Shown in pieces: positions 21,660 to 53,435 of a stretch of DNA of 64,000 bases (position 1 is its first letter; each line of letters begins with the position of its first letter). The stretch is taken from NCBI GenBank assembly GCA_017535725.1, contig JAFXTO010000025.1:83782-147781 (forward strand), written 5' to 3'. Source of the DNA: Bacteroidaceae bacterium (GTDB taxonomy: Bacteria; Bacteroidota; Bacteroidia; Bacteroidales; Bacteroidaceae). The position numbers were made by a program, and so were the translations under genes. The notes under the pieces were generated by a model. That model was given only the letters and a program-made list of their open reading frames with translations, did no database searches and was not told where the DNA came from.

Positions 21660-21700
21660 CACCGATTTTCAACGCAAGACCTTATAGACATTAACATATT

Positions 21701-21800: not shown

Positions 21801-21808
21801 ACTAACCC

Positions 21809-23096: not shown

Positions 23097-25610
23097 TTAG
23101 TCTACGTAGTAGATGCGTTTCACGCGGGGCGAGACACCAGTGAGGATTTCGTAGGGGATGGTGTCGATGATATCAGCCAGCACGGTGGGAGGAAGATCGG
23201 GACCGAAGATGACGGCGGTGTCACCCTCCTGGCAGGGGATGTCCGTAACGTCTATCATGCAGACATCCATACAGATGTTACCCACGTAAGGAGCCTTCTG
23301 CCCATTGACCAGGCAGTAGCCATTTCCGCGTCCGAGGTGGCGGTCGAGGCCATCGGCATAACCGATGGGCAAGGCGGCTATGCGGCTATCGCGGGTGAGA
23401 TGCCCCTTTCGGCTGTAGCCCACCGTCTCATTTGCAGGCACCTCGTGAATCTGCAGGATGGTGGTCTTCAGCGTGGAGATGGGGACGAGGCGTCGGTTCC
23501 CGGCGGCTTCCCCATCGGGCTTATTCCCTCTGGGATCCACCCCATACAACCCCAGCCCCAGACGCACCATGTCGCAATGCCTTTCTGGGAAGTGCTCGAT
23601 GCCCGCCGAGTTACAGATATGACGCAAGATGTGGTTGGAGAAGGCGGCTTGCAGCTCGTCGGCAGCCCCACAGAAAAGTTCCCACTGCTGGCGCGAGAAG
23701 TTGTCGAAGTCATCGCTATCCGAACCGACGAAGTGGCTGAATACGCTTCTGGGAATCAACGCCTTCTGCGACCGCAGCCGCTGGATGAGCTCCGATATCT
23801 CCCGCCTGGGGTCGAAGCCAAGCCGGTGCATACCCGTGTCCAACTTAATGTGGATGGGGAAGTTGGTAATACCCTCGCGCCGAGCTGTGTGTGAGAGGGC
23901 ATCCAGCAGACGGAAGCTGTAGACCTCCGGCTCCAGGTGGTATTCAAAGAGCGTGTGGAATGAGGACATCTCAGGGTTCATCACCATGATATTCGCCGTA
24001 ATGCCTGCCCGACGCAACTCCACACCCTCGTCGGCCACTGCCACGGCGAGGTAGTCCACACGGTGGTCTTGCAACGATCGAGCTATTTCCACGGCTCCGG
24101 CTCCGTAGGCCGATGCCTTGACCATGCAAATCATCTTTGTCTCCGGACGCATGAACGAACGGTAGTAGTTCAGGTTCTGAGCCACCGCCGAGAGGTTCAC
24201 CTCGAGGATCGTCTCGTGAACCTTCTGGACGAGGGCGTCCGTGATGCGGTCGAAGCGAGCCGAACGGGCTCCCTTGATGAGGACGATGCGGTCGCTGAGC
24301 GAGGCAAAGGCAGGCGAGGCGAGGAAAGCATCTACAGAAGGGAAAAGCAACATACGTACGGCCGTTTCCGGACCTTCTGGTCTCGCCTTCCCCAAAGCCG
24401 AAGGACTCTCCTCCCCCTTCGGGGTGGATTCAATAGTGGAACTGGGTGTTCCCGTTGAGTAACTTGGAAGGGGGCTATTCGCCATCCCCGCACTCACTTC
24501 CGGACCGATGCCTATAAATTCATCGACGCCGTAACGCTCCACGAATTCCGCCACCTGCCCGTAGAGTTCCGTCAGGGTGAGACCCGACTGCTGAATATCC
24601 GAGAGGATGAGCGTGCGGCGGCGACCTGCTGCCTCCGGACGACGGCGCATAAAGTCCAGCGCTATCTCCAGCGAGCCGAGGTCGCTGTTGCAAGTGTCGG
24701 TGATGAGGGTGTTACCCGCCCTGCCTTCCTTGACTTCCAGACGCATGGCCACTGGCTCCAACCGTTTCACCCGCTCCCGGATAACCTCTTCAGGAAGACC
24801 TAAGTAGCGACAGACGCAAATACAATGGATCGCGTCCTCCTGACTGGCGGCATCGAGGAAGGGCACCTCAAAATCTGCTTGATGCCAGCCAATGAGCGTT
24901 CCTTGGAAGCCACTCCTACGGATGCAGTCGTTGATGATTTCGTCGTCGGCATTATAAATAAGTACGCGCGCGTTGTGGAACAGGCGCAGCTTTTCGCGGC
25001 ACTTTTCCTCGCGGTCGGCAAAATTCTCGTCGTGAGCCGATCCGAGATGCGTCATGACTCCTATGGTGGGCTGGATGATGCTCTCCAGGGCATCCATCTC
25101 CCCCGACTCGCTGATACCTGCCTCGAAGATGCCCAGCTGAGTCTGTTCGGAGAGACGCCAGACGCTGAGCGGGACTCCTATCTGCGAGTTCCACGAACGC
25201 GGAGAGCGAGTGATATTGAAGTCGGGCGAGAGTAGCTGGTACAGCCACTCCTTGACGATGGTCTTGCCGTTGGAACCCGTGATGCCCACGACGGGGATGT
25301 TGAATTCCTCGCGATGGCGTTCAGCCAACCGCTGCATGGCTTTCAGCGGAGAGGGCACAATCAGGTAGTTGGCATCGGGCTCAGGCATCTCGGGTGCCTG
25401 GCTGACGACAAAGGCACGGACGCCTCGGCGGTAGAGCTCTGGGATGTAGCGGTGCCCGTCGTTCTTCTGTGTACGGATGGCAAAGAACAGGGATTCCTCG
25501 GGGAAGGTGAGCGAACGGCTGTCGGTCAGCAGCCAGTCGATGCGTGTGTCGGCACTACCCACGCGGTGGGCACCTATGAGAGTAGCGATTGTTTCGATTG
25601 AGTAGGTCAT
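23097..25610 (-). CDS. murF-alr: Bifunctional UDP-MurNAc-tripeptide D-Ala-D-Ala ligase / alanine racemase
   Basis: An 837-residue fusion typical of Bacteroidetes. Residues 1-370 are MurF: P-loop GITGSNGKT near 113, SWNSQIGVPLSVW, and GISESGEM. Residues 460-837 are alanine racemase: PLP Lys in MVKASAYGAGAVE near 498, HIKLDTGMHRLGF, the catalytic Tyr in VGYSRKG near 730, and YVGNICMDVCMIDVTDIP. It makes D-alanine and adds D-Ala-D-Ala to the peptidoglycan precursor. The linker (residues 377-413) has an unusual Ser/Pro/Gly-rich stretch (STPKGEESPSALGKARPEG) whose DNA resembles the GC-rich repeats in other genes here. It follows the GSCFA gene by 39 bases. Confidence 0.95.
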   Translation of the reverse strand: MTYSIETIATLIGAHRVGSADTRIDWLLTDSRSLTFPEESLFFAIRTQKNDGHRYIPELYRRGVRAFVVSQAPEMPEPDANYLIVPSPLKAMQRLAERHREEFNIPVVGITGSNGKTIVKEWLYQLLSPDFNITRSPRSWNSQIGVPLSVWRLSEQTQLGIFEAGISESGEMDALESIIQPTIGVMTHLGSAHDENFADREEKCREKLRLFHNARVLIYNADDEIINDCIRRSGFQGTLIGWHQADFEVPFLDAASQEDAIHCICVCRYLGLPEEVIRERVKRLEPVAMRLEVKEGRAGNTLITDTCNSDLGSLEIALDFMRRRPEAAGRRRTLILSDIQQSGLTLTELYGQVAEFVERYGVDEFIGIGPEVSAGMANSPLPSYSTGTPSSTIESTPKGEESPSALGKARPEGPETAVRMLLFPSVDAFLASPAFASLSDRIVLIKGARSARFDRITDALVQKVHETILEVNLSAVAQNLNYYRSFMRPETKMICMVKASAYGAGAVEIARSLQDHRVDYLAVAVADEGVELRRAGITANIMVMNPEMSSFHTLFEYHLEPEVYSFRLLDALSHTARREGITNFPIHIKLDTGMHRLGFDPRREISELIQRLRSQKALIPRSVFSHFVGSDSDDFDNFSRQQWELFCGAADELQAAFSNHILRHICNSAGIEHFPERHCDMVRLGLGLYGVDPRGNKPDGEAAGNRRLVPISTLKTTILQIHEVPANETVGYSRKGHLTRDSRIAALPIGYADGLDRHLGRGNGYCLVNGQKAPYVGNICMDVCMIDVTDIPCQEGDTAVIFGPDLPPTVLADIIDTIPYEILTGVSPRVKRIYYVD

Positions 25611-25649
25611 GGAGGATTTCCCCGACGGATGGACCGTCGGGCACAGGGA

Positions 25650-26705
25650 TTAAAGTTCGATGTTGTATTTAGAGATGATTTCGCTCAGCCGCTGGTGGGT
25701 TTGCTCATGAAAGCGGACGGCGGCAGGGGACTCCGGATTCGTGGGGCGGTGCATAAGAGCCTTGCGGATTGGCTCGTAGTCGCTGAGGAAACGGTGAGCC
25801 TCGGAGTCCAGGAAACGGGCGGAGAAGCGCTCCCAGATGTACTCTATCGCCTGAGACGAGGGATGCAGCATGTCCTCCGCATAGAAGCGGTAATCGCGCA
25901 GTTCGTCCAGCTGAATCTCGTAGGCGGGGAAGTAGCTCACCTGCTCCGGACGCTTCCGCTGGATGGCATCTACTGCTAATAATAGTGCAGCCTTCGAGAG
26001 GCGGCTCTCATGGAAGCCATACTTCTGATAACGATAAGGAGAGACCGTCAGAATGACCCGCGCCCGAGGGAAGAGCATGCAGATGCTTTCAAGGATAGTA
26101 ACCATTTGTTCCACAGTTAATTCCTTTTCAGCAAACAAGGTCTGAGGACGCTTGTGGCAGTTGCCTACCACGAGGGGGGAGGGAGAGGGGGAACTGGAAG
26201 AGGGGGACAAGGGAGAGCTCGAAGAGGGAGAACTGGAAGGTGAGGGGGAACTGGAAGGTGAGGGGGAACTGGAAGGTGAGGGGGCTCCGGCGGACGAACC
26301 GCCGGAAACGGGGAGGGGGATTAGCTCATAGTAGCGGTTGGTGCCTAAAGTGATGATGACGACATCCGGATTCCAGTCGAACAGCCTACCGCGGGCCGAG
26401 AGGATTCCAGCCTTGCAAGCTGCCTGCGAGGAAGCGTTCTTCGAACTATCCGTGAGCCAGCAATGCCACAGATGGTCTTCGTCCTCAAAGTACAGGTTAT
26501 CGTTCAAGGGGTTCTGAGTCAGCGCCTGCAGGATGCTTAGCGGGTTGTAGAGCACACCGAAGGGGTTGACCAACGCAGGCAATCCGCTCTGCCTCATGCG
26601 CATACCTATGTTCTCAGCGAAGCACGAACCGAGGAACGCAATCCTATTACGGAGTCCTATCAATTGTTCGGGACTTGAAATCTCAATGGTTGTTTGCAAT
26701 TTCAT
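25650..26705 (-). CDS. GSCFA-domain protein with repeat insert
   Basis: A 351-residue GSCFA protein: the signature LGSCFAENIG is at residues 27-36, followed by NPFGVLYNPLSILQAL, VVIITLGTNRYYEL and MLHPSSQAIEYIW, with the Ser/Asp-His layout of SGNH-like esterases. The central part (about residues 140-178) is a Ser/Pro tandem repeat (SPSPSSSPSPSS) that interrupts the domain between a strand and LVVGNCHKRPQTLF. It is upstream of murF-alr in the same direction, suggesting a role on cell-wall or exported glycans. Its leader contains a group II intron remnant. Confidence 0.85.
   Translation of the reverse strand: MKLQTTIEISSPEQLIGLRNRIAFLGSCFAENIGMRMRQSGLPALVNPFGVLYNPLSILQALTQNPLNDNLYFEDEDHLWHCWLTDSSKNASSQAACKAGILSARGRLFDWNPDVVIITLGTNRYYELIPLPVSGGSSAGAPSPSSSPSPSSSPSPSSSPSSSSPLSPSSSSPSPSPLVVGNCHKRPQTLFAEKELTVEQMVTILESICMLFPRARVILTVSPYRYQKYGFHESRLSKAALLLAVDAIQRKRPEQVSYFPAYEIQLDELRDYRFYAEDMLHPSSQAIEYIWERFSARFLDSEAHRFLSDYEPIRKALMHRPTNPESPAAVRFHEQTHQRLSEIISKYNIEL
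26172..26286. repeat. In-frame tandem repeat in the GSCFA gene
   Basis: The plus strand shows repeated GAACTGGAAGGTGAGGGG units of 18 bases (three near-perfect copies at the right end) and diverged copies to the left. The unit is a multiple of three, so the Ser/Pro-rich peptide can expand without a frameshift. Confidence 0.85.
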
Positions 26706-26984
26706 TATAGGTCTGCGAGGTGTCCCCCGCCCTCCCCATTAAGAACCGTGCAAGCGTCTTTCACCGCACACGGCTCGTATAATTCTATTTTTTTCATTTT
26801 ATTCATTAACCGACTCTTAGGTGCCTTTGGGCACTGCGTTTGAGTGGACAACAGACATTAGTCAACAGCCGTGAGCTAATTCTCTGTCACGATGATTCCG
26901 ACAACGGTTACTTCACGTTGTTCATGATGGAACTAGAGGTTCTTTATTCAAAGAACTATTATCTATACGACTTCACGTCGCAAT
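26706..26984 (-). ncRNA. Group II intron remnant with domain V
   Basis: The minus strand at 26776-26743 is exactly 34 bases and reads as group II intron domain V: GAGCCGTGTGC (AGC triad), GAAA tetraloop, and a closing GCACGGTTC arm. One G-A mismatch sits in the distal stem. Before it (26984-26780) are further hairpins, such as GTTCTTT-GAAT-AAAGAAC and GTGCC-CAAA-GGCAC, that fit remains of other intron domains. About 37 bases after domain V comes ATG 26705 of the GSCFA gene. No intron-encoded protein is present and the total is only about 280 bases, so it is a deleted relic. The outer limits are uncertain. Confidence 0.65.
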
Positions 26985-26991
26985 CATGCTG

Positions 26992-26999
26992 CAAAGATA
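26992..26999 (-). promoter_or_regulatory. -7 box of the GSCFA/murF-alr promoter
   Basis: Minus-strand TATCTTTG at 26992-26999, with TCTG (one mismatch to TTTG) 20 bases upstream at 27020-27023. Transcription would start near 26985, so the intron remnant would form the 5' leader of the GSCFA message. Confidence 0.6.
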
Positions 27000-27128
27000 A
27001 GCATTTTTTCTGTGGGAAGCAGAACTTTTCTGGTTTAAAGTTTATTTCCAAGGCAGAAAAAGCATCAAAAAGCAGGCTTGCAACCAAAAAACTACAAACT
27101 CGAAACCATAAACACTAAACTTTTTCCG

Positions 27129-27136
27129 TACCTTTG
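27129..27136 (+). promoter_or_regulatory. -7 box of the dxs promoter
   Basis: TACCTTTG at 27129-27136, 21 bases before ATG 27157. The -33 region is not a clear match. Confidence 0.6.
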
Positions 27137-27156
27137 TCGCCGAAAAGAACATACGC

Positions 27157-29058
27157 ATGAACGAAACAAGCGAACAGAACTATTCTCTGTTACAAAACAT
27201 ACAGGTTCCTGCCGACCTCCGACAGTTGCCCTTGGAGCAACTGCCCGAAGTGTGCCGTCAACTACGCGACGACATCATCCGCGAGCTGTCTGGAAACCCT
27301 GGACACTTCGCCTCCAGCCTCGGAGTAGTGGAACTGACCGTAGCCCTGCATTACGTCTACAACACCCCTTACGACCGCATCGTCTGGGACGTGGGGCATC
27401 AGGCCTACGGACATAAGATTCTAACTGGTCGCCGCGAAGCCTTCCGCACCAACCGCCACTTCCACGGAATCAAGCCCTTCCCTTCACCCGAGGAAAGCGA
27501 GTACGATGCCTTTACTGCGGGTCACGCATCCAACAGCATCAGCGCAGCACTCGGAATGGCACTTGCGGCCAAGGCGAAGGGAGAGCAGCGACACATCGTT
27601 GCCGTAATCGGCGACGGAGCCATGAGCGGAGGGCTCGCCTACGAAGGACTGAACAATGCAGCCAACACGCCCAACGACGTACTCATCATACTCAACGACA
27701 ACAACATGAGTATCGACCACAGCGTAGGAGGCATGAAGGACCTGCTCCACCGACTGCAGACAAGCTCCACCTACAACCGATGGCGCGACCGAGCTGCTCG
27801 CAAGATGGTCTCCTGGGGATGGATCAATGAGGAGCGGAAGAAAGGTATCATCCGCTTCAACAACTCGCTCAAGAGCTTCATCACCCGCCAGCAGAACATC
27901 TTCGAGGGCATGAACATCCGCTACTTCGGTCCTTCCGACGGACACGACGTCATCGAGCTGGTGCGTACCCTGCGCGCCATCAAGGAGATGAAGGGACCCA
28001 AGTTGCTGCACATCCACACCATCAAGGGCAAGGGCTTTGAGCCAGCCGAACAAGGAGGTGCCGTGTGGCACGCTCCAGGCCGCTTCGACCCCCGGACGGG
28101 CGAACTCATCAAGACCAACGAGGAAGGACTACCGCCCAAGTTCCAAGATGTTTTTGGGCACACCTTATTAGAACTCGCGCGCGCGAATGAGAAAATTGTT
28201 GGCGTAACCCCAGCCATGCCCACAGGTTGCTCATTGAACATCATGATGGAAGCTATGCCTAACCGCGCCTACGACGTAGGCATCGCCGAGGGCCACGCTG
28301 TGACCTTCTCCGCTGGTATGGCCAAAGACGGGCTACTGCCCTTCTGCAACATTTATTCCAGCTTCGTCCAGCGCGCTTACGACAACATCATCCACGATGT
28401 CTGCATCTCGCGTCTGAACGTCGTGCTATGCCTGGACAGAGCAGGACTCGTCGGTGAGGACGGCCCCACGCACCACGGCGCCTTCGACCTCGCTTTCCTG
28501 CGCCCTATCCCAAACCTAACCGTCTGTTCACCCATGGACGAACAGGAACTACGCCACCTCATGTACACCGCCCAGCTGCCCGACCGCGGCCCCTTCGTCA
28601 TCCGTTACCCGCGAGGACGCGGAAGCTGCCCCGACTGGGAATGTCCCATGAAGGAGATTCCCGTAGGACGCGGACGTCTCCTGAAGGAAGGCACGGACGT
28701 AGCCTTGCTCACCCTCGGTCCTATCGGCGTGGAAGCCGTGAAGGCGGTGCGCGAGGCCGAGGAAGAACATCCCGGCTTCTCTGTTGCACACTACGATATG
28801 CGCTTCCTTCGTCCTTTGGACGAACGCCTGCTGACGGAGGTAGCTGCACACTTCCGCCGGGTGGTCACCGTCGAGGACGGGGTGCGCTGCGGAGGCTTCG
28901 GAACTGCCGTACTTGAATGGATGGAAGACCACGGAGCCACTTGTCGAGTTACCCGTCTGGGACTACCCGACGCCTTCGTAGAACACGGCTCCATTGCAGA
29001 ACTCCGACAGCTCTGCGGCATCGACCACGAAGGCATCAAGCGGGCTCTACTCAGTTGA
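27157..29058 (+). CDS. dxs: 1-deoxy-D-xylulose-5-phosphate synthase
   Basis: A 633-residue thiamine-diphosphate enzyme of normal length. Motifs: [16 protein letters not shown]-type segment ([15 protein letters not shown]) near residue 79, the ThDP-binding [17 protein letters not shown] near 152-168, LNDNNMSID, the central [15 protein letters not shown], and [23 protein letters not shown], the transketolase-type second domain. It condenses pyruvate and glyceraldehyde 3-phosphate, the first step of the non-mevalonate isoprenoid pathway. trkA follows 46 bases later in the same direction. Confidence 0.98.
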
Positions 29059-29104
29059 TAAACCCTATGGCCCTCCCTATAAGCCCCATTAACTCCCGCC
29101 CATT

Positions 29105-30484
29105 ATGAAAATCATCATCGCCGGAGCAGGCGCCGTAGGCAGCCACCTCGCCGCCCTCCTCTCGAAAGAGAATCACGACATCGTTGTCCTCGATCCAGAT
29201 ATCGAGAAACTCTCCAAGGCTACCGACGGACTGGACGTGATGACCCTGGGCGTCTCGCCCACGAGTATCAGCGGACTGAAGGAAGCGGGCACACCGCAGG
29301 CAGACCTGTTCATCGCCGTCACGCCCTCCGAGACACGCAACATGACTTGCTGCATCCTCGCCCATTCCCTGGGAGCGAAGAAGACTGTAGCGAGAATCGA
29401 CAACGCAGAATACATCGAAGAACGCAACCTCGAATTCTTCCGGCAGATGGGAATTGGCTCCCTCATCTATCCAGAAATGCTGGCCGCACAGGAAATTGTC
29501 AACGGAGTGCGTCGCTCCTGGGTTCGTCAGTGGTGGGAAGTTCACGAAGGAGCACTCATCATCCTGGGTATCAAGCTACGAGAGGAAGCTACCGCACTCT
29601 ATGACCAGCAGCTACGAGACCTCTGTCCACCTGACTCACCCTACCATATCGTTGCCATCAAGCGCGACGAAGCCACCATCATACCTGGCGGTTTCGATGA
29701 CCTCCGACTCGGAGACATCGCCTACTTCATGACCACCAAGAAATTCGTTCCCAACATCCGTCAATTGGTGGGTAAGGAAAACTACGCCGACGTCAAACGT
29801 TTGATGATCATGGGCGGAGGACGCATCAGCGTGCAGACATGCCATCTGCTACCCGACTATATGGAAGCCAAGCTCATCGAGCAAGACCTCTCACGGTGCC
29901 ACCAGCTGGCTGACCTGTTGGATAATGACGACATCATGGTCATTAATGGTGACGGACGCGATATGGCGCTGCTTACGGAGGAAGGAATCCGCCAGACACA
30001 GGCGTTCTGTGCACTCACCGATGATACCGAGGAGAATATCCTCGCCTGCCTCGCCGCCAAGCGGATGGGAGTCCGCAAGACCGTAGCACTCGTGGAAAAC
30101 ACCGAATATATCACGATGGCAGAAAAGCTGGATATCGGAACCATCATCAACAAGAAAGCCATCGCCGCAAGCCATATCTACCAGATGATGCTGGCCGCAG
30201 ACGTCGCAAGCGTCAAGAGTCTCACGATTGCAGATGCTGACGTCGCGGAGTTCGTGGCTGTAGAAGGGAGCCTTGTCACCAGCTGTCCCGTCATGAAACT
30301 GGGATTACCCAAGGGAATTACCATCGGAGGTCTCGTGCGCAACGGAGTAGGGCAGCTCGTGAATGGACGCACCCAAATCCTACCCGGCGATCACGTCGTG
30401 GTCTTCTCCCGCACAGCACTCTTCAAAGAATTGGATCACCTCTTCGGGAAACCCAAAGGCGGACTTTTCTCCATCTTCCATTAG
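29105..30484 (+). CDS. trkA: Trk potassium uptake regulator TrkA
   Basis: A 459-residue protein with two RCK repeats. The first nucleotide-binding motif is GAGAVGSHLAALL at residues 6-18, with Asp at the end of strand two (VVLDPD); the second begins MIMGGGRISVQTCHLL near residue 237. Each is followed by a TrkA-C domain (IILGIKLREEATA; SCPVMKLGLPKGITIGGLVR). TrkA gates the TrkH potassium channel in response to NAD(H). The dxs-trkA order is common in Bacteroidetes, but trkH does not follow here; a TonB receptor does. Confidence 0.95.
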   Translation: MKIIIAGAGAVGSHLAALLSKENHDIVVLDPDIEKLSKATDGLDVMTLGVSPTSISGLKEAGTPQADLFIAVTPSETRNMTCCILAHSLGAKKTVARIDNAEYIEERNLEFFRQMGIGSLIYPEMLAAQEIVNGVRRSWVRQWWEVHEGALIILGIKLREEATALYDQQLRDLCPPDSPYHIVAIKRDEATIIPGGFDDLRLGDIAYFMTTKKFVPNIRQLVGKENYADVKRLMIMGGGRISVQTCHLLPDYMEAKLIEQDLSRCHQLADLLDNDDIMVINGDGRDMALLTEEGIRQTQAFCALTDDTEENILACLAAKRMGVRKTVALVENTEYITMAEKLDIGTIINKKAIAASHIYQMMLAADVASVKSLTIADADVAEFVAVEGSLVTSCPVMKLGLPKGITIGGLVRNGVGQLVNGRTQILPGDHVVVFSRTALFKELDHLFGKPKGGLFSIFH

Positions 30485-30494
30485 AAGCCCCGTC

Positions 30495-30517
30495 ACCCTC
30501 CCAATGAGGGAGGGAGT
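30495..30517. repeat. Short palindrome between trkA and the receptor gene
   Basis: ACCCTCCCAATGAGGGAGGG, a short GC palindrome lying 10 bases after the trkA stop. It is an intergenic copy of the same kind of repeat that is found inside the receptor, RND and helicase genes. Confidence 0.6.
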
Positions 30518-30560
30518 GGTCACCATGCCTATTCACAAACTTAATTATACCTTTAATATT

Positions 30561-32867
30561 ATGAAAAGAAAGCATTCCTCAAGTGTATTTCTACCACACG
30601 GCGCTTGCAACGCTTCTTCGAGCGTCCGCGAGTCAGGAAAAGGAGGAGTGAGGCGAAAGGTTATCTTCCATCGGTTCTGCCGTAAGGGCTATGCTGCCTT
30701 TGCCAGCATGCACCGCGAAGTGTGCATCGGAGTCCTCGCAATTTCCATGCTCTCCAGCGTAAACCTCCCGAAAGTCAAAGCTGCTCAGCCCACTTCCTCT
30801 ACTCCTTCCGACTCCACCTCCGTAGCCTCCGACGAAGAACTCAGCGAGGTCATCGTCGCAGGCTCCCTGTCCCCGCTGACCGCCCTGCAGTCCGCCCGCA
30901 TCGTTGAGGTCATCAACCGCCAGCAAATAGAATCAGCGGCGGTGCAAACCGTCAACGACCTCCTGAAATTAGCCGTCGGCGTGGACGTCCGACAACGCGG
31001 CGGCTTTGGTATTCAAACGGACATTTCCATCGATGGCGGCACGTTCGACCAAATCACCCTCCTGCTGAACGGTGTCAACATCACCTCCCCCCACACAGGC
31101 CATCTCTCCGCTGACTTCCCCGTCAGCCTCAGCGACATCGAGCGCATCGAAATCCTCGAGGGCGCCGCCTCCCGCGTGTATGGTGCCAGCGCCTTCGGAG
31201 GGGCTATAAATGTGGTGACAAAGAAAACAGACTCTCCCCCCGCTATCCCCAAAGACTCTCCCCCCGCCCTCCCTGTTAGGGAGGGAGCAAATACCAATGA
31301 CCGTAGATTTTCTGTTGAAGGCGGCGTTATGGGCGGGATGTATGGAACAGTGGGAGCCGATGCCCACATTTCCTTTTGGAAAAAAATATCAGACTCCAAA
31401 GTATCCGCTCCCTCCCTAACAGGGAGGGCGGGGGGAGAGTCTTTTCCCTCCTTATCAGTGAGGTTGGGGGGAGAGTCCGTCCGTTCTGACGGTGCAACCC
31501 AGAACTCTGACTTCCAGCGCGGCAATGTCTTCTTCCGCAGCGAACTGGATGCCAACGACTTCCGCATGGAAGCCCAGGCCGGATTCAGCTTCAAGTCCTA
31601 CGGAGCCAATACCTTCTATTCCGCAGCCTACCCCAACCAGTACGAACGTAACCGCCGCACCATCATCAGTCTCGCCGCCGAGACCAAAGGGCGCATCCAC
31701 CTGCGACCCGAAGTCTATTGGCATCGCCTCATAGACAACTTCGAGCTCATCCGAGGCACCACAACCGGCGAAAACTTCCATCGTACAGACGTCCACGGAG
31801 CACGAGTCACAGCAGACCTGCGCTGGATAGCCGGACGCACAGCCGTCGGAGCAGAAGTGCGCGAGGAAGGCATCTACAGCACCTCTCTCGGGCAGCCCAT
31901 TACCTCTACCGCCCACCACATCGCAGGTGAGGGAGACCTCTTCTACACAAGGCACGATGCACGTACCAACCTCAGCCTCAACGCAGAACACACCCTGCTC
32001 CTACCCCACTTCACCGCCAGTGTGGGCGTCCTCGCCAATATGAACACCCGCTTCGATGACCACCTGCGTTTCTATCCAGGCATAGATCTCGCCTACACCC
32101 TCTCCTCCAACTGGCGCCTCTTCGCCTCCTACAACCAGGGCTTCCGCCTCCCCACCTTCACAGACCTCTATTACAAATCGCCCACCCACGAAGGAAACCA
32201 GGGAATGCGTGCAGAGGAGAGCCACAGCTTCCAAATCGGCGTAAAGGGCTCTTTCAATATTTCCGCTCGACCTTGGTCGCTCCATACTTGGAGAACTTTT
32301 CAATTTTTCAATTTTTCAACGAAGCTCTTCTACCACCGAGGCACCGACTTGATTGACTGGGTGATGTACTCCCCCGACGACGTCTTCCACAGCGCCAACT
32401 TCGACCTCGACAACATGGGCTTTCAAGCTACAGCAGCCCTCCAACTCTCACAACTGTTCAACAATCCAGATGCCGTGCTCCAACGTCTACAGGCAGGCTA
32501 TACCTACCTCTACCAGAACCGCCGCGATGACACCTATATCTATAAATCCAACTATGCCATGGAATACCTGCGCCACAAGCTGGTATGCTCTCTGGACCTC
32601 CGCATCGTGTCGCACCTCTCTGCCTCGTGGACACTACGCTGGCAGAACCGCATGGGCAGTTACATTCTCTATGAGAACGCCCAGTCCACTGGTCAACTGG
32701 TGCCTTACGACCCCTACGCCACACTGGACCTGCGCCTGCGCTGGACGGCACGCCACTACGAACTCTGGGCGGACGCCACCAATCTCCTGAATCACCGCTA
32801 CTACGACCTTGGCAATATTCCTCAGCCAGGAATCGTTGTCCTCGCTGGAGTACGTGTACGATTATGA
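30561..32867 (+). CDS. TonB-dependent outer-membrane receptor, BtuB-like, with repeat inserts
   Basis: Start placed at ATG 30561 (MKRKHSSSVFLPHGAC), giving 768 residues. An extended N-terminus (HRFCRKGYAAFASMHREVCIG, then a hydrophobic stretch to VKAAQ near residue 79) is the long signal-peptide type seen in Bacteroidetes cobalamin-receptor-like proteins. The plug follows (LSEVIVAGSL, then QTVNDLLKLAVGVDVRQRG, DIERIEILEGAASRVYGASAFGGAINVVT), and then the 22-strand barrel ending NHRYYDLGNIPQPG. Three loops hold peptides coded by dispersed repeats, near residues 223-242, 282-305 and 568-580. The likely cargo is a cobalamin-type compound, but only by resemblance. Confidence 0.9.
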   Translation: MKRKHSSSVFLPHGACNASSSVRESGKGGVRRKVIFHRFCRKGYAAFASMHREVCIGVLAISMLSSVNLPKVKAAQPTSSTPSDSTSVASDEELSEVIVAGSLSPLTALQSARIVEVINRQQIESAAVQTVNDLLKLAVGVDVRQRGGFGIQTDISIDGGTFDQITLLLNGVNITSPHTGHLSADFPVSLSDIERIEILEGAASRVYGASAFGGAINVVTKKTDSPPAIPKDSPPALPVREGANTNDRRFSVEGGVMGGMYGTVGADAHISFWKKISDSKVSAPSLTGRAGGESFPSLSVRLGGESVRSDGATQNSDFQRGNVFFRSELDANDFRMEAQAGFSFKSYGANTFYSAAYPNQYERNRRTIISLAAETKGRIHLRPEVYWHRLIDNFELIRGTTTGENFHRTDVHGARVTADLRWIAGRTAVGAEVREEGIYSTSLGQPITSTAHHIAGEGDLFYTRHDARTNLSLNAEHTLLLPHFTASVGVLANMNTRFDDHLRFYPGIDLAYTLSSNWRLFASYNQGFRLPTFTDLYYKSPTHEGNQGMRAEESHSFQIGVKGSFNISARPWSLHTWRTFQFFNFSTKLFYHRGTDLIDWVMYSPDDVFHSANFDLDNMGFQATAALQLSQLFNNPDAVLQRLQAGYTYLYQNRRDDTYIYKSNYAMEYLRHKLVCSLDLRIVSHLSASWTLRWQNRMGSYILYENAQSTGQLVPYDPYATLDLRLRWTARHYELWADATNLLNHRYYDLGNIPQPGIVVLAGVRVRL
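31230..31288. repeat. In-frame GC-palindrome insert, receptor copy 1
   Basis: GACTCTCCCCCC occurs at 31230-31241 and 31254-31265. The second is followed by GCCCTCCCTGTTAGGGAGGGAGC, so 31254-31288 is a 35-base unit. It codes DSPPALPVREGAN in the receptor. Its exact reverse complement is at 31407-31441. Confidence 0.9.
31407..31477. repeat. In-frame GC-palindrome insert, receptor copy 2 (inverted)
   Basis: 31407-31441 is the perfect 35-base reverse complement of 31254-31288; a further GGGGGGAGAGTC ends at 31477, pairing with the first GACTCTCCCCCC at 31230. It codes [13 protein letters not shown]. The true receptor strand between the two copies (RFSVEGGVMGGMYGTVGADA) is intact. Confidence 0.9.
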
Positions 32868-32938
32868 ACGCCGCAAAGAATAGCCGAGCCTTTACCTATC
32901 GCGAAATCCACTTGATAAACTTTTTCAAATGGACCCAG

Positions 32939-42119: not shown

Positions 42120-42490
42120 TATAATGTTTTTGAAAAATAGATATAGATATGCAGACCGTTTGACCTCTGTCAAACGCTTTACTCGTCCATACGTGTTTAT
42201 GGTTTCGTCCGTACGTGTTTGCGGTTTCGTCCATACGTGTTTGCGGTTTCGTCCGTACGTGTTTGTGGTTTCGTACTTACGTGTTCGATGAAACAATAGG
42301 GATGTTCTCAAACATCTCTCGCGCTCATACGCGCGCGGGCACGAGAGGAAAGAAAATCCCGTCATTTCGTCACAAATAGAGATTTACGCAAACATACTGA
42401 TTGATTATTGGTCGCTTATAAGTGTGACGAAAGGTGTGACGAAGGTGATAAATCTGTGACGAAGTGACGATTTGATGTCTTTCCTAATTT
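42120..42490 (+). repeat. Dispersed non-coding element, copy A (hairpin plus five 22-bp units)
   Basis: Within the 720-base gap after the giant gene. Order: hairpin CGTTTGAC-CTCT-GTCAAACG (42157-42176); five 22-bp units starting at 42184, 42206, 42228, 42250 and 42272, built on CGTCCRTACGTGTTTGYGGT; a GC-rich CTCTCG...CGAGAG hairpin with CGCGCG inside; then several GTGACGAA repeats to about 42475. Copy B at 62240-62600 has the same order. The reading frames across it shift with every 22-base unit, so coding is unlikely. Upstream 41819-42119 shows no other signal. Confidence 0.85.
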
Positions 42491-42538
42491 CAGTTGACAT
42501 TTTTTGATGATGAGTTACGGAGTGACAACCGTTACAGA

Positions 42539-46434: not shown

Positions 46435-46466
46435 TTTGGTTTATAAAATAAACCTATCTACCTTTG
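46435..46466 (+). promoter_or_regulatory. Promoter for the 46642-47619 pair
   Basis: TTTG (46435-46438), exactly 20 bases, TACCTTTG (46459-46466): a full Bacteroidales consensus promoter. The leader to ATG 46642 is about 170 bases and ends in an A-rich stretch. Confidence 0.85.
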
Positions 46467-46641
46467 CACTCGCAAACCGGTAATGCAGCGCCAAATCCGC
46501 CCTTACTGCAGGAGGAAAGAGGAGGCGAAACAGTTCTTCAAACGTTCGCTCTACCTTATCAATTGATACATCAAGAGAACTCGCATGGTGCTGAGCGGAC
46601 AATTCAAAAACAAATTATTAACATTTAAAATTACAATTGAA

Positions 46642-47322
46642 ATGGAAGCAAACAACAACATGACTGCAGAACGCAGTTTGGAGATCATTACCACACAGAT
46701 TGCACAGAGCCGCAAGGACGTATCGAAGGACGTAGGACTATCGCTCTACATTGCAGGACTTTGCACGATGGGCACTGCACTGGTAATCGGTATCTGTACA
46801 TTCTTTACCAACAACAGCGCCTTCTACTTGCTATATTTCGCACTACCACTTATTATATATGGTTTCACGCGCTACGCGAAGCGGAACCAGCCGCCCACCC
46901 CAAGCAGTCTCTTTGGCACGATGGTGGCAAAGACGTGGCTCACCTTCGCCATCTTCGCACTTTCGTTTTTCGTCTTTGCCAACTTATTCGACTTTCTGGT
47001 GGCTCGTACAGAGTCCCCTGATGTCGCCGTCAGACTCATGATTCAGCCTTTCCGAACCATCCTGTTGCTGATGGGCATGTGTGTGACCATTACGGGTTAT
47101 ATCCTCAAGAGCCGTTGGCTGGTCTGGTGCGGCATCATTGGGGGCATCGGAGGCTTCATCTGGGAAACCTTCAACGTGACAGGGACGCTGTTTGCCTACA
47201 TTGCCGCCGACATTTCCAACTATTGCGGAGTGGTGCAAGGATTGATTCCTGGAATCATCGTCGCCCTCTTCGCATTCATCGGCCTGACGCTCCCAGGCCT
47301 GATGCTCAAACGTCAGAAATAG
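46642..47322 (+). CDS. Polytopic membrane protein, function unknown
   Basis: ATG 46642 (MEANNNMTAERSLEIITTQIAQ) is chosen over 46585 because the family-like soluble helix begins there and the extra 19 residues are leader-like. The 226-residue protein has a short N-terminal amphipathic helix and about six membrane segments (for example LYIAGLCTMGTALVIGICTF, LTFAIFALSFFVFANLFDF, CGVVQGLIPGIIVALFAFIG). Its stop is 3 bases before a winged-helix regulator; such pairs in Bacteroidetes are co-regulated, with the regulator controlling the pair. Confidence 0.8.
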   Translation: MEANNNMTAERSLEIITTQIAQSRKDVSKDVGLSLYIAGLCTMGTALVIGICTFFTNNSAFYLLYFALPLIIYGFTRYAKRNQPPTPSSLFGTMVAKTWLTFAIFALSFFVFANLFDFLVARTESPDVAVRLMIQPFRTILLLMGMCVTITGYILKSRWLVWCGIIGGIGGFIWETFNVTGTLFAYIAADISNYCGVVQGLIPGIIVALFAFIGLTLPGLMLKRQK

Positions 47323-47325
47323 CCT

Positions 47326-47619
47326 ATGTTCCAGCCATTAGATCCACTATTGCACTCCGAGCTGCGACTGGCCATTATGTCGCTTCTCATCAGCGCTGAC
47401 GAGGCCGAGTTCCCGTACATCAAGGAGCAGACGGGAGCTACGGCAGGCAACCTCAGCGTGCAAGTGGAGAAGCTATCGGCGGCAGGTTACATCACCGTCG
47501 AGAAGACTTTTAAGAGCAAACGTCCCTGCACCATCTGCCGCATAACGCCCGCAGGTCTCAAAGCTTTTGAGACCTATGTGCAAGCGTTGAAGAGCTACTT
47601 GGAAGTGGGCAAAGCGTAA
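47326..47619 (+). CDS. Winged-helix transcriptional regulator (PF13601-like)
   Basis: A 97-residue protein entirely made of a winged-helix domain: LHSELRLAIMSLLISADEAEFPYIKEQTGATAGNLSVQVEKLSAAGYITVEKTFKSKRPCTICRITPAGLKAFETYVQAL. The recognition helix is TAGNLSVQVEKL and the wing is KTFKSKRPCTICRIT. This is the MarR/ArsR-like type found next to membrane-protein genes. It is coupled to the upstream membrane gene. Confidence 0.9.
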   Translation: MFQPLDPLLHSELRLAIMSLLISADEAEFPYIKEQTGATAGNLSVQVEKLSAAGYITVEKTFKSKRPCTICRITPAGLKAFETYVQALKSYLEVGKA

Positions 47620-47648
47620 TCCCTTCCACAACCACCCAAGACATGAAT

Positions 47649-47680
47649 CACCCCTGTATCCAACTGCGATACAGTGGGTG
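47649..47680. terminator. Hairpin between converging genes
   Basis: CACCCCTGTATC (47649-47660), loop CAACTGC, GATACAGTGGGTG (47668-47680): 12 pairs with one mismatch. It lies between the winged-helix gene and the converging RND gene; the T tract is weak. Confidence 0.6.
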
Positions 47681-47692
47681 GTTGCAATCATA

Positions 47693-50600
47693 CTATTCTC
47701 TAATCCTCCACGTTTCCTCCAGGGTTTGAAACACGACGAAGAGGGAGGGGACGAAGAGCAAGAGGGCGATAGTGCCTATGAGCATACCGCCCACGGTACC
47801 CACGCCGAGCGAGATGTTACCGTTCGCTCCAGCACCCGTAGCAAACATCATGGGCAACAGTCCGAAAATCATCGTCAGCGAAGTCATCAGGATGGGACGC
47901 AGACGCACCTGAGCAGCAGAGAGGGCCGCCTGAACGATGGTCATCCCCGCACGACGACGCTCACTGGCGTACTCCGTGAGTAGGATAGCGGTCTTGGAGA
48001 GCAGGCCGATAAGCATGATAACACCCGTCTGCATGTAGATATTGTTCTCTAATCCAAACCACTGGGCGAAGAGGAACGAACCCATCAGTCCGAAAGGGAC
48101 GCTAAGGATAACAGCAAGGGGGATGAGCAGGCTCTCGTACAAGGCGCAGAGTATGAGATAAATGAAGACAATGCAAGCGGCGAAGACGTAGATGGTGTTC
48201 TGTCCTGCCGAAGCCTCCTCGCGACTCATACCTGCAAATTCGTAGCCGTAGCCCTCGGGCAGGATGCGCGCCGCCTCCTCACGAACGGCTTGCAGGGCCT
48301 GACCAGAGCTGTAGCCCTTCTCCGGCATACCACTAACCTGAATGGCAGGGAAGAGGTTGAAGCGGGTGAGGTTTGCAGTTCCCAAGATGGGTTTAAGCTG
48401 TACGAAGCCGGACAGGGGAGCCATTGTTCCAGATGCGGTACGCACATACATATTATTCAAGGCCTGTACGTCCATCCGAGCATTGACCTCTGCCTGCACC
48501 ATGACGCGGTACAGCTTGGAGAACTTGTTCATATTCGAAGAGTAACTGCCGCCGATATATCCAGAGAGGCAGGCGAGGACATCGGAGGGCGAGACGCCAG
48601 ACTGCTTGCAGCGGGCCGCATCCACCGTGAGGCGGTACTGCGGATAGCGGTTGTCGAAGGAGGTCTGCGAGCGCGCTATTTCCGGACGCGCCTGCAGGGC
48701 AGCAATGAGGCGCTGGGTATGCAGCAGGAGCGAATCCACGGAACCGCCCTGATGATCCTGCACCTGCAGCTCGAAGCCATTCGTGGCGCCGTAGCCGCTA
48801 ATCATCGGCTGTGTGAACGCCATGATTTTCGCCTCGTGGATTGCAGCGACGCGGCGGTTGACTTCCGCCATGACACTCTTGAGGTCGTCGCCCTTGCCCT
48901 TGCGCTCATCCCAATTTTTCAGTCGCAGGAGGAACATACCATTATTGGAGCTCTGTCCAGCCATACGGCTGACACCCACGCTCTTGCTGTAAGCCTTGAT
49001 TTGCGGAAGGTCCTTGATGAGCTGTTCCACGCGGTTCATCATCAAGTGTGTTTCCGCCTTCGTGCTTCCGGGTTGTGTCTGAACGGTCACGTAGATGACA
49101 CCCATATCCTCATCCGGAACCAGCGCCGTCTTGGTAGTCCGCAGGAAGTAGGCGAAAGCAGCAAGGGCGGCGAGAACAGACACTCCCACCAACCATTTCC
49201 TGTTTATGAGCCATCTCACAGCGCTGTTGTAAACAATGTATGCTCTATTAATCCCATCAGTCCCATTGCCCCCATTAGACCCATTGACCCCATTAGACCC
49301 ATTTTCCCCATTAGTCCCATTGACCCCATTAGACCCATTTTCCCCATTAGACCCATTTTCCCCATTAGTCCCATTGACCCCATCAGTCCCATTGACCCCA
49401 TCAGTCCCATTGACCCCATTAGACCCATTTTCCCCATTAGCCCCACTTCCCCCATTAGTCCCATTATCCCCATTAGTCCCATTGACCCCATTAGACCCAT
49501 TTTCCCCATTAGCCCGATTACTCCCCTGAGCTTTCTTGGATCTTCTTAGCAGCCTCGCACAGAGAGCAGGACTCAGCGTCAACGCATTAATCATCGATAT
49601 CAGGACAGCGACAGCCATCGTCAGACCAAACTGCGTGTAGAAGATACCGCTCGTTCCACCCATGAAGCAGACGGGGATGAACACAGCCATAAAGACCAAC
49701 GTGGAGGTGATGAGGGCGGTGGTTATTTCGTGCATGGCGGAGAGGGTTGCAGACCCACCCCCCGCCCGCCCTGTGAGGGAGGGAGTAGAATGAGTCAGAC
49801 GGGCAGCATTCTCCTCAACAGTCAGTGGTGACTGCTCCCCTCCTTCACAGGGAGGGGTCAGGGGGTGGGTCCGATCTAATTTCGACTGCACCGCCTCCGC
49901 CACCACGATAGCGTCGTCCACTACCGTTCCTATCACCAGGACGAGGGCGAACAACGTCAAGGTGTTCAGCGAGAAGCCTGCGATATAAAGAAAACCAAAG
50001 GTACCTACCAGCGAAACAATAATGGCTACCAGCGGCACCAGCGTGGCACGCCACGAGCGCAGAAACAGCAATACCACCAAGACCACGAGGACAGCCGCTT
50101 CCAGCAAGGTTCGTTCCACACTGCTGATGCTGGCGTCCAGGAAGTCCTTGGTGGACATCAGGTCGATGAGTTCCATATCTGCTGGCAGATCCTTACGGAT
50201 TTCCTCCACCAATTTGTCTATGGCGATAATGATTTCGTTGGCGTTGGAGCCCGGCGTCTGCGAAATCATACAGCTGGCACCGGGATGCCCATTGATCTCA
50301 CCTTCGATGGCGTAGCCCTGCAAACCCATCTCCACACGCGCCACGTCTTTCAGGCGGAGTACCGTGCCGTCAGGGTCTGCGCGGATAACTAAGTTCTCGT
50401 AGTCCACTTCCTCCTCATAGCGACCACGATATTTCAGGACGTACTGAAACGTGTTGTCACTTTCCTCACCCAACGTTCCTGCCGGACTCTCCACATTCTG
50501 CTCTGCCAATACCGCCGTGATGTCCGAGGGCATCAGTCGTTGTTGTGCCATCTTTGCCGGATCAAGCCAGATGCGCATGGAATAGTTGCTTCCGTAAACA

Positions 50601-51130
50601 TCCACTTCGCCCACCCCCGGCACGCGACTCAAACGCGGTTCGATGTTGATTTTGAAATAGTTGTTGAGGAAGGCGAGGTCGTAGGTTCCATTGGGACTGT
50701 AGAGGCCAAGTGATTTCAGCGTGGAAGTCTGGCGACGCATGACGGTGACACCTGTTCGGGTGACTTCGGCCGGCAGCAGTCCCTGCGCCTGAGCCACGCG
50801 GTTCTGGACATTCACCGTAGCCATATCCGGGTCTGTGCCCTGCTTGAAGAAGATGTTGATACGTGCCGAGCCGTTGTTGGAGGCATTGGAAGTCATGTAG
50901 AGCATATTCTCCACGCCATTGATGGCTTCCTCTAAAGGAACCACCACGGATTTCTGCACCGTCTCCGCATTGGCTCCCGTGTAGTTGGCCCCAACGCTGA
51001 CCGTCGGTGGCGCAATATCAGGGAATTGCTCGATGGGCAATTGCGTGAGGCCAATGGCACCCACGATAACAATCATGATAGAAATCACTCCCGCCAAAAT
51101 GGGACGTTCTATGAAGGTTCTAATGTTCAT
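47693..51130 (-). CDS. RND efflux pump (AcrB/MexB-like inner-membrane protein) with two inserts
   Basis: A 1145-residue RND transporter: N-terminal [21 protein letters not shown], porter segments, the proton-relay Asp pair in [17 protein letters not shown] near 407-408, and the second-half Lys in [17 protein letters not shown] near 1045. Family members have about 1030-1050 residues; the excess comes from two inserts. One (about residues 420-459) replaces the cytoplasmic loop after the Asp helix and is coded by an inverted GC repeat. The other (about 537-627) is a Gly-x-Asn repeat in the loop between the two halves. No membrane-fusion or outer-membrane partner gene is next to it. Drug or detergent efflux is the family role; activity with these inserts is unproven. 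Confidence 0.92.
49250..49518. repeat. In-frame 9-bp-based tandem repeat coding Gly-x-Asn triplets
   Basis: On the minus strand the unit is a 9-base AAT-GGG-NNN pattern repeated about 30 times, giving [14 protein letters not shown] and variants. Every third residue is Gly, so it resembles a collagen-like repeat, but in a predicted cytoplasmic loop. The copies differ mainly at the variable codon (GAA, AGC, GTC, ACT, GAT). Confidence 0.9.
49752..49871. repeat. In-frame inverted GC-repeat insert in the RND gene
   Basis: Outer arms GACCCACCCCC (49752-49762) and GGGGGTGGGTC (49861-49871) pair perfectly. Inside lie CCCTGTGAGGGAGGGAG and its near-inverse CTCCCCTCCTTCACAGGG. The insert is 120 bases, 40 codons, and codes PPCEGGEQ and [12 protein letters not shown]; the second resembles the receptor's [11 protein letters not shown]. 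Confidence 0.9.
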
Positions 51131-51311
51131 TTTGTGTCATTTTGCCTGCAAAGATAAGGAAAAGTTTATAGTTTAAAGTTTAAAGTCTTGAGTAATTTGA
51201 CTATTTATCCCTATTTTTACTGTTTTTTCTGCCTCAAATGGATTTTTCACGAAACTTTACTCCAGAAACATTAAACTTTTTATTACCTTCGCACCCAAAA
51301 ACATCGAAGTC

Positions 51312-53435
51312 ATGGCAGAAAGTCCAATCACAATCCTCCAACGGCAGCGTGCGCTGCTGCAAACGGAATATGCCTACGAGAAGGAAGAATTTCAGCGGCT
51401 GACCGAAGCCACGGGCGTGAAACGCAAAGTGGAACGTGGCATGGCGTGGTTTCCGCTGACCCTGGGCCGCAGCTACCACAACTCGCTGGACCAGCTGGTT
51501 GTCGAGGTTTCTCGTTCCGATGCCGCCGAGACGACTTCGGAACGAGAAGACCCGTCTCTCTTCGAACCCGGCAAACCTGTCTGCTTCTTCTCCGAGGATG
51601 CATCGGGCGACTTCCACGGAACGGGAGGCCTCCTACATTATTATAAGTTCGTGGCGCAGGTGAGCTACGTGGAGGACGACCGAATGGTCATCGCACTACC
51701 CTCGCCCGATGCGCTGGAACAGCTACACGAAGCCTACCGCTTAGGAGTTCAGCTCTATTTGGATGAACAGACCTACCACCTGATGTTCGAGGCGCTGGAT
51801 GACGTCATCACCGCCAAGACAGGTCGTCTGGCGGAACTGCGTGAAATCTTCCATTCCACCCTGCCTTGTGGAAAATTCACTTTCGACCCCGTCCGTTTTC
51901 CTTGGTTGAACACGAGCCAGCAGGCGGCGGTGAACGAGGTGCTCTGGGCAAAGGACGTGGCAGTAGTACACGGGCCTCCGGGAACAGGAAAGACAACCAC
52001 ACTCGTAGAAGCCATCTACGAGACGCTACGTCGTGAGAACCAGGTGTTGGTCTGTGCACAATCGAATATGGCTGTAGACTGGATTGCGGAGAAGCTGGTG
52101 GATCGCGGCGTCAGCGTACTGCGCATCGGCAACCCCACTCGTGTAACGGACAAGATGCTCTCCTTCACCTACGAACGACGTTTCGAGAGCCACCCTTCCT
52201 ACCAGGATTTGTGGGCCATCCGTCGAACCATCCGACAACTCTACGACAGCAACAGCGGCAGCCGTGAGAACCGCCATCAGAAGATTGCACGGCTGAAGGA
52301 CCGCGCCACGGACATCGAATACACCATCAACCAAGCCCTGTTCGCCGACGCCAAGGTCATCGCCTGCACCCTCGCCGGCAGTGCCAATCGCCTGCTTATG
52401 GGTATGAAATTCGGTACCCTTTTCATTGACGAGGCAGCACAGGCTTTGGAAGCGGCCTGCTGGATAGCCATCCGCAAGGCACACCGCATCATCTTTGCTG
52501 GCGACCACCGTCAACTGCCACCGACCATCAAATCACCAGAAGCCATGCACGGAGGACTGGACAAGACACTGATGCAATATATCGTCGAGCAGAAACCGCA
52601 GGCCGTCTCACTCCTCACGGTGCAGTACCGTATGTGCGATGCCATCATGCAGTTCCCCAACCGCGAGTTCTACGGCGGACAACTCACCAGCGCCCCGGAG
52701 GTGAAGTACCGAGGTATTTTGGATTGGGATACGGCCATTGAATGGGTGGACAGTAGACCCACCTCCCTGCCCCTCCCTGTGAGGGAGGGGAGTAATTACC
52801 CTACAGGGTATGCACAAAGCTCAAAGCTAAGGGACAAGGCGGATGCCCACTCAAGTCATCTTACTCCCCTCCCTAACGAAGTGCCCAGGGTAGCGAGGAT
52901 AGTGGAGGTTGACTTGATGTCAAGCTCCCCGAGCGACCGAGGATTCGCTCGACCTTGGTCGCTTGACACTTCAAGAACTCCTAATCTGAGGGCGGAAATG
53001 CAGGGGAGTGGGTCTTCATGGTTTAATGTCGCCGAGGCCCAGCTGACCCTCGCCACCCTACAACGCTATTTTGAGAAAATAGGAAAGGAACGCCTGCTGG
53101 AGGAACGCGTGGACGTAGGTGTCATCTCGCCTTACAAAGGACAGGTGAACCTGCTACGCCGCATGTTGCGCCAGGACAGCTATTGGAAGCCATTCCGCTC
53201 GCTCATCACGGTGAATACCGTCGATGGCTTCCAGGGTCAGGAGCGCGATGTCATCGTCATCAGCCTCGTCCGAAGCAACGACCAGGGCGACATCGGATTC
53301 CTCCGCGACCTGCGCCGCATGAACGTAGCCATCACCCGCGCCCGCATGAAACTCATCATTCTCGGCGACAAGAACACTATCTGCCGCATGCCATTCTACA
53401 AGCGACTTGCGGACTACATTGATGAGACTTATTAG
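51312..53435 (+). CDS. SF1 (IGHMBP2/UPF1-like) helicase with repeat insert
   Basis: A 707-residue SF1B helicase. Motifs in order: Walker A VHGPPGTGKTTTLVEAI near 221, motif Ia QSNMAVDWIAEKL, motif II LFIDEAAQALEAA near 372, motif III FAGDHRQLPPTIKS, motif IV LLTVQYRMCDAIMQFPN, motif V VDGFQGQERDVIVISLVRSN and motif VI MNVAITRARMKLIILGD near 670. An ordinary relative has about 620 residues; the extra 86 (about 481-567) lie between WVDS and SSWFNVAEAQ and are coded by dispersed repeats. A weak promoter TACCTTCG lies just before the start. DNA or RNA repair role not resolved. Confidence 0.92.
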   Translation: MAESPITILQRQRALLQTEYAYEKEEFQRLTEATGVKRKVERGMAWFPLTLGRSYHNSLDQLVVEVSRSDAAETTSEREDPSLFEPGKPVCFFSEDASGDFHGTGGLLHYYKFVAQVSYVEDDRMVIALPSPDALEQLHEAYRLGVQLYLDEQTYHLMFEALDDVITAKTGRLAELREIFHSTLPCGKFTFDPVRFPWLNTSQQAAVNEVLWAKDVAVVHGPPGTGKTTTLVEAIYETLRRENQVLVCAQSNMAVDWIAEKLVDRGVSVLRIGNPTRVTDKMLSFTYERRFESHPSYQDLWAIRRTIRQLYDSNSGSRENRHQKIARLKDRATDIEYTINQALFADAKVIACTLAGSANRLLMGMKFGTLFIDEAAQALEAACWIAIRKAHRIIFAGDHRQLPPTIKSPEAMHGGLDKTLMQYIVEQKPQAVSLLTVQYRMCDAIMQFPNREFYGGQLTSAPEVKYRGILDWDTAIEWVDSRPTSLPLPVREGSNYPTGYAQSSKLRDKADAHSSHLTPLPNEVPRVARIVEVDLMSSSPSDRGFARPWSLDTSRTPNLRAEMQGSGSSWFNVAEAQLTLATLQRYFEKIGKERLLEERVDVGVISPYKGQVNLLRRMLRQDSYWKPFRSLITVNTVDGFQGQERDVIVISLVRSNDQGDIGFLRDLRRMNVAITRARMKLIILGDKNTICRMPFYKRLADYIDETY
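52756..53014. repeat. In-frame composite repeat insert in the helicase gene
   Basis: Outer arms GACCCACCTCCCTGC (52756-52770) and GCAGGGGAGTGGGTC (53000-53014) are near-perfect inverses. Inside: a palindrome CCCTCCCTGTGAGGGAGGGG coding LPVREGSN, then a stretch (52946-52977) with CGCTCGACCTTGGTCGCT and GCTTGACACTTCAAGAA that also occur elsewhere in the window. Confidence 0.9.

Follow-up and report, generated by a model that had tools for sequence, protein, structure and literature searches.

The GC-rich palindromes in the window (the whole stretch of 64,000 nucleotides analysed here) belong to a high-copy family of repeat units, each built from two inverted hairpin modules. Units lie in frame inside unrelated protein genes, are missing from some of the same sites in related genomes, and in three cases enclose a gene for a putative DUF559 nuclease. 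Cores that are almost identical turn up in unrelated genes, and two species carry the core in opposite orientations at one orthologous site. It is somewhat better than an even bet (probability about 0.55) that the family is a mobile element that has a long form bearing DUF559 and short forms resembling MITEs, and that is retained where it remains in frame.

The sequence-only reading had placed palindromes in a TonB-dependent receptor, an RND pump and a helicase, with an intergenic copy at 30495. A module profile recovers all four, and the peptides LPVREG (receptor and helicase) and PSLTGRAGG (receptor and pump) are shared as claimed. A further copy suspected in murF-alr did not hold up: the stretch 24403-24417 (GGACTCTCCTCCCCC) is absent from the window matches of the module model, listed up to E 10. 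The family is larger than had been noted; its unit is a hairpin doublet, many extragenic copies are in frame with the next gene, and some carry the DUF559 gene.

The core pattern matches 5 times in the window, compared with a mean of 0.05 (maximum 1) over 100 dinucleotide simulations. Across the whole genome (2.905 Mb in 72 contigs, 76% complete, the window included), a search for a 19-mer, allowing up to 2 mismatches, finds 112 matches forward and 110 in reverse, totals that overlap since many palindromes are scored on both strands; the same pattern has 0 matches in the reversed genome. The profile, built from 70 module sequences and searched with nhmmer, finds 131 non-overlapping modules at E < 0.1 (118 at E < 1e-3) within 803 kb of own sequence, which comprises the window and 40 further stretches, nearly all picked for containing pattern matches. 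The reversed 803 kb returns 5 matches, every one at E > 5. These modules form 51 inverted pairs and 29 singles, and 39 stretches of two relatives, G043 and G040, add 42 pairs and 28 singles, giving 93 units from three genomes. A looser pattern has at least one match in 36 of 81 genomes (the own one counted), 35 of them from the genus (0 to 110 matches per genome) and one from another family, and a longer pattern matches in 29 of 399 family genomes, spread over 7 of 30 genera. Among the best 80 of 410 matches, the closest named relatives of the RND pump come mainly from assemblies of Bacteroidaceae, Prevotellaceae or Bacteroidales that were sampled in the rumen or elsewhere in the ruminant gut.

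Each unit comprises two modules of ~45 nt in inverted orientation flanking a core, and the module consensus is GAC[TC]C[TA]CCCCCCG-CCCTCCCTnnnnAGGGAGGG-AG... Among neighbouring modules at most 500 nt apart in the own 803 kb, the +- arrangement occurs 51 times, -- 6 times, and -+ and ++ twice each; in G043 and G040, 42 of 53 neighbours are +-. The outer arms are matched in type (GACTCT paired with AGAGTC, or GACCCA with TGGGTC) for 52 of the 56 units with both arms typed (over all 93 units, 43 and 9 concordant, 4 mixed and 37 with an untyped arm; Fisher p 2.7e-7). The inner arms are usually asymmetric, one being a-type (GCGGTTACC-like) and the other b-type (TCAAATACATTCTGC-like). Five units folded as RNA reach -75 to -99 kcal/mol with z of -6 to -13. 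By eye, GAC[TC]C forms the unit end in most of the 51 own pairs, and no direct repeat that would mark a target duplication was seen at these pair ends; the empty sites are too diverged to fix the exact ends. Two short repeats (GGTTCGAAGNCGGAACTATTAAGTGTTCC and CTTGAAGGGTCAAGCGTCTCTTCGAG, in seven and four copies) are nested inside the module hairpin at fixed points and read open in frame in the coding hosts observed.

Table 1. Repeat copies, host genes and associated features (window positions unless a locus is named)
Feature	Position	Strand	Evidence or remark
Receptor module pair	left 31254-31298; right 31398-31441	left +; right -	nhmmer E 4.2e-14, 8.8e-15; in-frame ORF
Host beta-barrel segment between receptor modules, not element core	31299..31397 (limits approximate)	+	aligns with insert-free receptors, e.g. 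L156, L160, L163
Decayed module directly after receptor pair (FPSLSVRLGGES)	31445..31477	-	nhmmer E 0.0012; also in G043 (L320)
Partial extra outer arm (DSPPAIP)	31226..31250	+	inverted repeat
Single decayed intergenic module	30493..30526	+	nhmmer E 8.6e-6
Complete unit within RND efflux permease gene	49752..49871	-	two modules, E 1.5e-9 and 5.3e-5
Decayed unit in IGHMBP2-family helicase gene	52756..53014 (left module 52756-52800; right end 53003-53014)	+	left module E 2.8e-5
Host ORF, TonB-dependent receptor	30363..32867	+	Pfam PF00593, PF07715
Host ORF, RND efflux permease	47693..51130	-	Pfam PF00873
Host ORF, IGHMBP2-family helicase	51312..53435	+	TIGR00376, 385.4 bits (cut-off 348.9)
DUF559 (PF04480) genes	L040:6971-7333; L040:11548-11910; L313:4714-5076		E 5e-34, 2.3e-32, 3.5e-33
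Nested short repeats	L040, L041, L045, L050, L057, L060, L066, L068, L071, L339		

In the window (Table 1), the reading of the receptor pair begins DSPPALPVREGANTND, and the same module arrangement recurs in G043 (L152, L320). The intergenic module lies between an ORF at 29105-30484, TrkA-like by eye, and the receptor gene, and the true start of the receptor ORF is probably downstream of 30526. The RND unit folds as RNA at -74.9 kcal/mol (z -6.27). The pump gene also holds a long in-frame collagen-like repeat at 49193-49584, none of which was seen in 22 aligned homologues. Two other repeats were observed: a ~340-nt sequence at 42129-42470 and 62243-62586, ~80% identical and unrelated to the module family, and an AT-rich tandem repeat with an 8-nt period at 21685-21823, ahead of an ORF.

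Palindromic repeats in frame within unrelated protein-coding genes are a feature by which Rickettsia palindromic elements are recognised, and 42 of the 93 units lie within frames of at least 200 aa. Stop-free frames of this length contain 22 of the 51 own pairs and 15 of the 29 own singles, compared with 688 of 1020 pair-sized segments placed at random; in G043 and G040 they contain 20 of the 42 pairs and 11 of the 28 singles, compared with 611 of 840. These rates below random indicate that genes are avoided, yet far from excluded. One reading phase (DSPPALPVREG...) is shared by 33 of the 42 coding units, and the first base of the unit falls at codon position 1 in 18 of 22 own and 15 of 20 relatives' copies. 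Units in host proteins are 107-314 nt long, mostly 113-190 nt. A length of 2 mod 3 is found in 34 of 42 coding units compared with 12 of 51 others (p 3e-8), a bias that is partly circular because the coding class demands an intact frame. The hosts include CTP synthase, DapF, MutS2, Mfd, DsbD, TamB, a UvrA-like protein, GH127, GH43 and an altronate-dehydratase-family enzyme, in addition to the receptor, permease and helicase of the window. Judged from sequence, the inserts are presumably translated in the cell.

Most of the genomes are metagenome assemblies, and the own one is 76% complete, so that assembly artefacts or pseudogenes might be suspected as the source of the interrupted genes. This explanation has next to no probability. 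The pattern repeats in independent assemblies and other genomes, among them a 97%-complete relative; the frames are open in core enzymes and show the phase bias; and of 20 host frames scanned, 19 have a Pfam match, many being core enzymes.

Copies outside genes are also related to reading frames. Of the 51 units outside frames, 36 run, in the same phase as the coding copies, into a following frame of at least 120 codons (38 of 54 sides, a count that omits frames closed within 8 codons, a filter disfavouring one phase). Unfiltered, with frames of at least 200 codons, phase 2 accounts for 33 of 57 sides, phase 1 for 18 and phase 0 for 6 (p 1.2e-4); with frames of at least 120 codons, phase 2 is found on 36 of 69 sides. 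Some of the sides counted may be antisense open frames. This phase test is better frame evidence than the mod-3 bias. No Met occurs within the first 25 residues past the unit in 22 of the 33 phase-2 frames, nor in 16 of 24 other-phase frames. One resulting N-terminal extension reads MNTSSQIHSAPSQKGRAGGES, and homology among 30 genes with a unit-borne extension is limited to two pairs. Of the 24 frames on the upstream side, 13 arrive in a phase that often stops at once (p 0.03). Deleting the 51 non-spanned units creates a joined long frame in 41 cases, compared with 152 of 300 random segments, and under a strict test in 24 of 51, compared with 75 of 300.

Alignment of the host proteins with homologues reveals loops that are empty, or filled with a different insert, in relatives. 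Of the 22 aligned RND homologues, 18 lack the insert; other inserts occupy the site in L074, L076 and L086, and another short insertion is found in L082. The helicase loop is variable: L182 has a clean unit there and L188 lacks one. Empty sites were also found for the receptor and for a glycosyltransferase. In CTP synthase, the loop between RRML and DFVITE has few residues in many of 30 loci (the L277 and L283 rows are wrong frames) and holds the module family in the own genome. Other insert sequences occupy it in L265, L267, L271, L266, L269, L272 and L288. The inserts of L265, L267 and L271 belong to another family with inverted GTTGAC/GTCAAC-rich ends, reading VDELTSGQVDK...STRQLVNSLTE. The MutS2 loop, in a survey where 14 of 30 loci were unmatched by the anchors used, contains the module family in the own genome and, in a more or less decayed state, in L344, L345, L347, L349 and L353; L342, L346, L354 and further loci have other sequences there.

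The DNA between two modules is of two kinds. In the receptor it is a host beta-strand, a second CTP synthase pair brackets conserved host sequence, and host DNA was recognised by eye between the modules in Mfd, a TrmB-like gene and signal-peptide genes. Simple insertion of a unit does not account for these pairs because the inter-module DNA is host sequence, and independent single insertions could explain part of them. At L063:18939-19160 and L303:5526-5747, in both species, a pair brackets the start and first ~25 codons of a gene that resembles trmB by eye. The idea that all cores are host DNA was dropped, as many are element cores.

Element cores recur at unrelated places. One altronate-dehydratase-family gene contains three units with near-identical cores and different flanks, and such cores are common to PyrG and DapF, and to TamB and an FGGY sugar kinase. 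For 76 of the 87 units of at most 260 nt, a nearest neighbour in core sequence exists at a score of at least 0, and in 67 of these 76 it belongs to the same class, in frame or not (permutation p 0.0002), an agreement for which the class difference in core G+C (0.474 and 0.33) may account in part.

At the glycosyltransferase site, the modules are the same in G040 and G043 and the right flanks agree at 55 of 60 positions, but the core of 89 nt lies in opposite orientations: once flipped, it is identical at 83 of 89 positions, with an alignment score of 77 compared with -4.5. Both core orientations read open; in G043 an extra partial arm precedes the left module. This site, together with the arm order that is opposite by eye between relatives at the MutS2 and RND sites, would suit a protein-diversifying switch, in which the core flips between the inverted modules and recodes surface loops in the manner of a recoding inverton. 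Such a switch is very improbable as the general explanation: 18 of 32 coding units stay open when flipped, compared with 14.2 expected from codon shuffles, which is no clear enrichment and no clear sign of maintained reversibility.

Three long units (488, 483 and 546 nt) enclose a 121-aa DUF559 gene between their modules. The proteins score 116.9, 111.5 and 114.2 bits against PF04480, above the curated cut-off of 20.6, and match the endonuclease-like protein 3hrl at E 1.5e-17 and, weakly, the mobile intron protein 3r3p at E 0.045. The gene is separated from the module by 17 nt on one side and by 16, 22 and 78 nt on the other, and all three units carry a- and b-type arms at their ends with the same asymmetry. 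The DUF559 stop codon and the start codon of the frame behind it overlap as ATGA, and blastp shows no homology among the three genes that follow. The two copies in the own genome are separated by 10 non-synonymous and 20 synonymous changes (dN/dS 0.115); between these and the G043 copy the numbers are 28 and 59, and 31.3 and 57.7, with synonymous sites saturated. The gene is under purifying selection.

By tblastn at E 1e-4 in the sequence set gathered around modules, these three are the only DUF559 matches from the genus, and one more match lies on a Prevotella contig (L139) with no module nearby. No DUF559 match was found in 640 kb of own sequence (13 modules), which fits an association and is a weak control; its stretches come from contigs with few or no pattern matches and are hence module-poor by choice. 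None was found either in the 117,660 bases searched of G040, which has 107 pattern matches. Because sampling was module-centred, the association of DUF559 with modules is suggestive, not proof.

In the mobile-element reading that we prefer, the long forms carry the nuclease gene between their arms, the short forms have a small core, and the short forms would descend from the long ones. The putative DUF559 nuclease may mobilise the family, spreading it by cutting and repair-copying and not as a classical transposase does. Units in or at genes tend to keep an open frame; a unit inside a protein would add a loop, and one before a gene could supply a start codon and an N-terminal extension. A stronger version is tentative, and we would sooner doubt it than accept it: a new kind of autonomous element, in which a DUF559 gene between hairpin ends inserts itself in frame, couples through ATGA to the start of a host gene, leaves MITE-like loops or N-terminal extensions behind, and flips its core to recode the site.

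The presence of different cores at the same sites in related species (MutS2, RND), the composite modules with the same nested insert at 7 places and the lack of a gene in nearly all copies are also what would be expected of a selfish sequence like the Rickettsia palindromic elements, spread by recombination or gene conversion with no dedicated enzyme, DUF559 being a chance capture. We regard this as quite unlikely, given three DUF559 genes between the same asymmetric ends, before non-homologous genes and conserved between species.

An enzyme acting in trans was also considered. The inverted-doublet architecture resembles that of REPINs (PMC3116915), which raises the prospect of a REPIN-type family mobilised by a REP-associated tyrosine transposase (RAYT), with DUF559 as passenger. 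The own genome encodes a 468-aa RAYT-like protein (NF047646, 50.4 bits, below the cut-off of 80), besides an IS200-like protein. Relatives of the RAYT-like protein occur in 33 of 51 genus genomes and in 14 of the 15 genomes with at least 24 copies (copy number being higher where they are present; Mann-Whitney p 0.002, 49 genomes), a moderate association that may reflect phylogeny and assembly completeness. Against it, 9 of 17 genomes with no RAYT match still hold 1-27 copies, and none of 55 Y1/RAYT loci, some overlapping, has a module in its ~1.5-kb flanks (best E in the repeat search, 1.8). The palindrome in the RAYT gene (TCTGCGG..CCGCAGA) is a different sequence, found once in 803 kb, and GTAG and CGTC tags are absent by eye from the unit ends of the 51 own pairs. 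RAYT mobilisation is unlikely, though it stays a rival. The form TCTGCGG(N)5CCGCAGA was observed at L234:2301, L235:928 and L236:1954, in or near the three closest RAYT-like genes.

In open-licence PMC papers, no description of the module family in Bacteroidales and no paper on the insert peptide strings was found. To our knowledge, palindromic elements inserted in frame have been described chiefly in Rickettsia. The rumen Bacteroidales studied here show such insertion at high copy number, with CTP synthase and MutS2 among the enzymes concerned. A given site can be empty, filled or differently filled from one related genome to another, which allows the origin of protein loops from selfish DNA to be tested directly, and if DUF559 drives the spread, a domain of unknown function would gain a role.

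Several known systems share parts of this organisation. Intragenic (recoding) invertons have inverted repeats within a gene around a segment readable in both orientations; here, by contrast, the repeats are a mobile family and flipping is known between species only. The DUF559 protein is presumably akin to Vsr-like/EDxHD homing endonucleases, unlike which the putative nuclease sits between hairpin modules and not in an intron. Rickettsia palindromic elements are described in a review as ~150 bp long, forming several families and lying in frame in unrelated protein genes (PMC10969869). In-frame insertion is the shared property, and the likeness drawn by the sequence-only reading stands as an analogy. 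The present family differs in its phylum, its two-hairpin doublet with asymmetric arms, the nuclease gene in some copies, the copies before gene starts and the inversion of the core. REPINs are described as inverted doublets that form a hairpin, with changes matched on both sides and singlets alongside (PMC3116915). Two inverted palindromic modules as the replicating unit are likewise found here; REPINs, however, are extragenic, whereas 42 of the 93 units lie inside frames and 36 of the rest are in frame into the next gene, no GTAG tag is present, and RAYT loci are not flanked by modules. The palindrome in or near the RAYT-like genes recalls the tnpA_REP genes of subclass 2.4 from Bacteroidetes and cyanobacteria, which are reported to contain REP sequences themselves (PMC6006769); that insertion is in the transposase gene, and the palindrome of the RAYT-like genes here is another family. 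The strongest additions to the sequence-only reading are the organisation as a doublet, the presence of copies ahead of genes, the inversion of a core and the units that bear DUF559. By analogy, the family appears to work like the Rickettsia palindromic elements and to be built like a REPIN.
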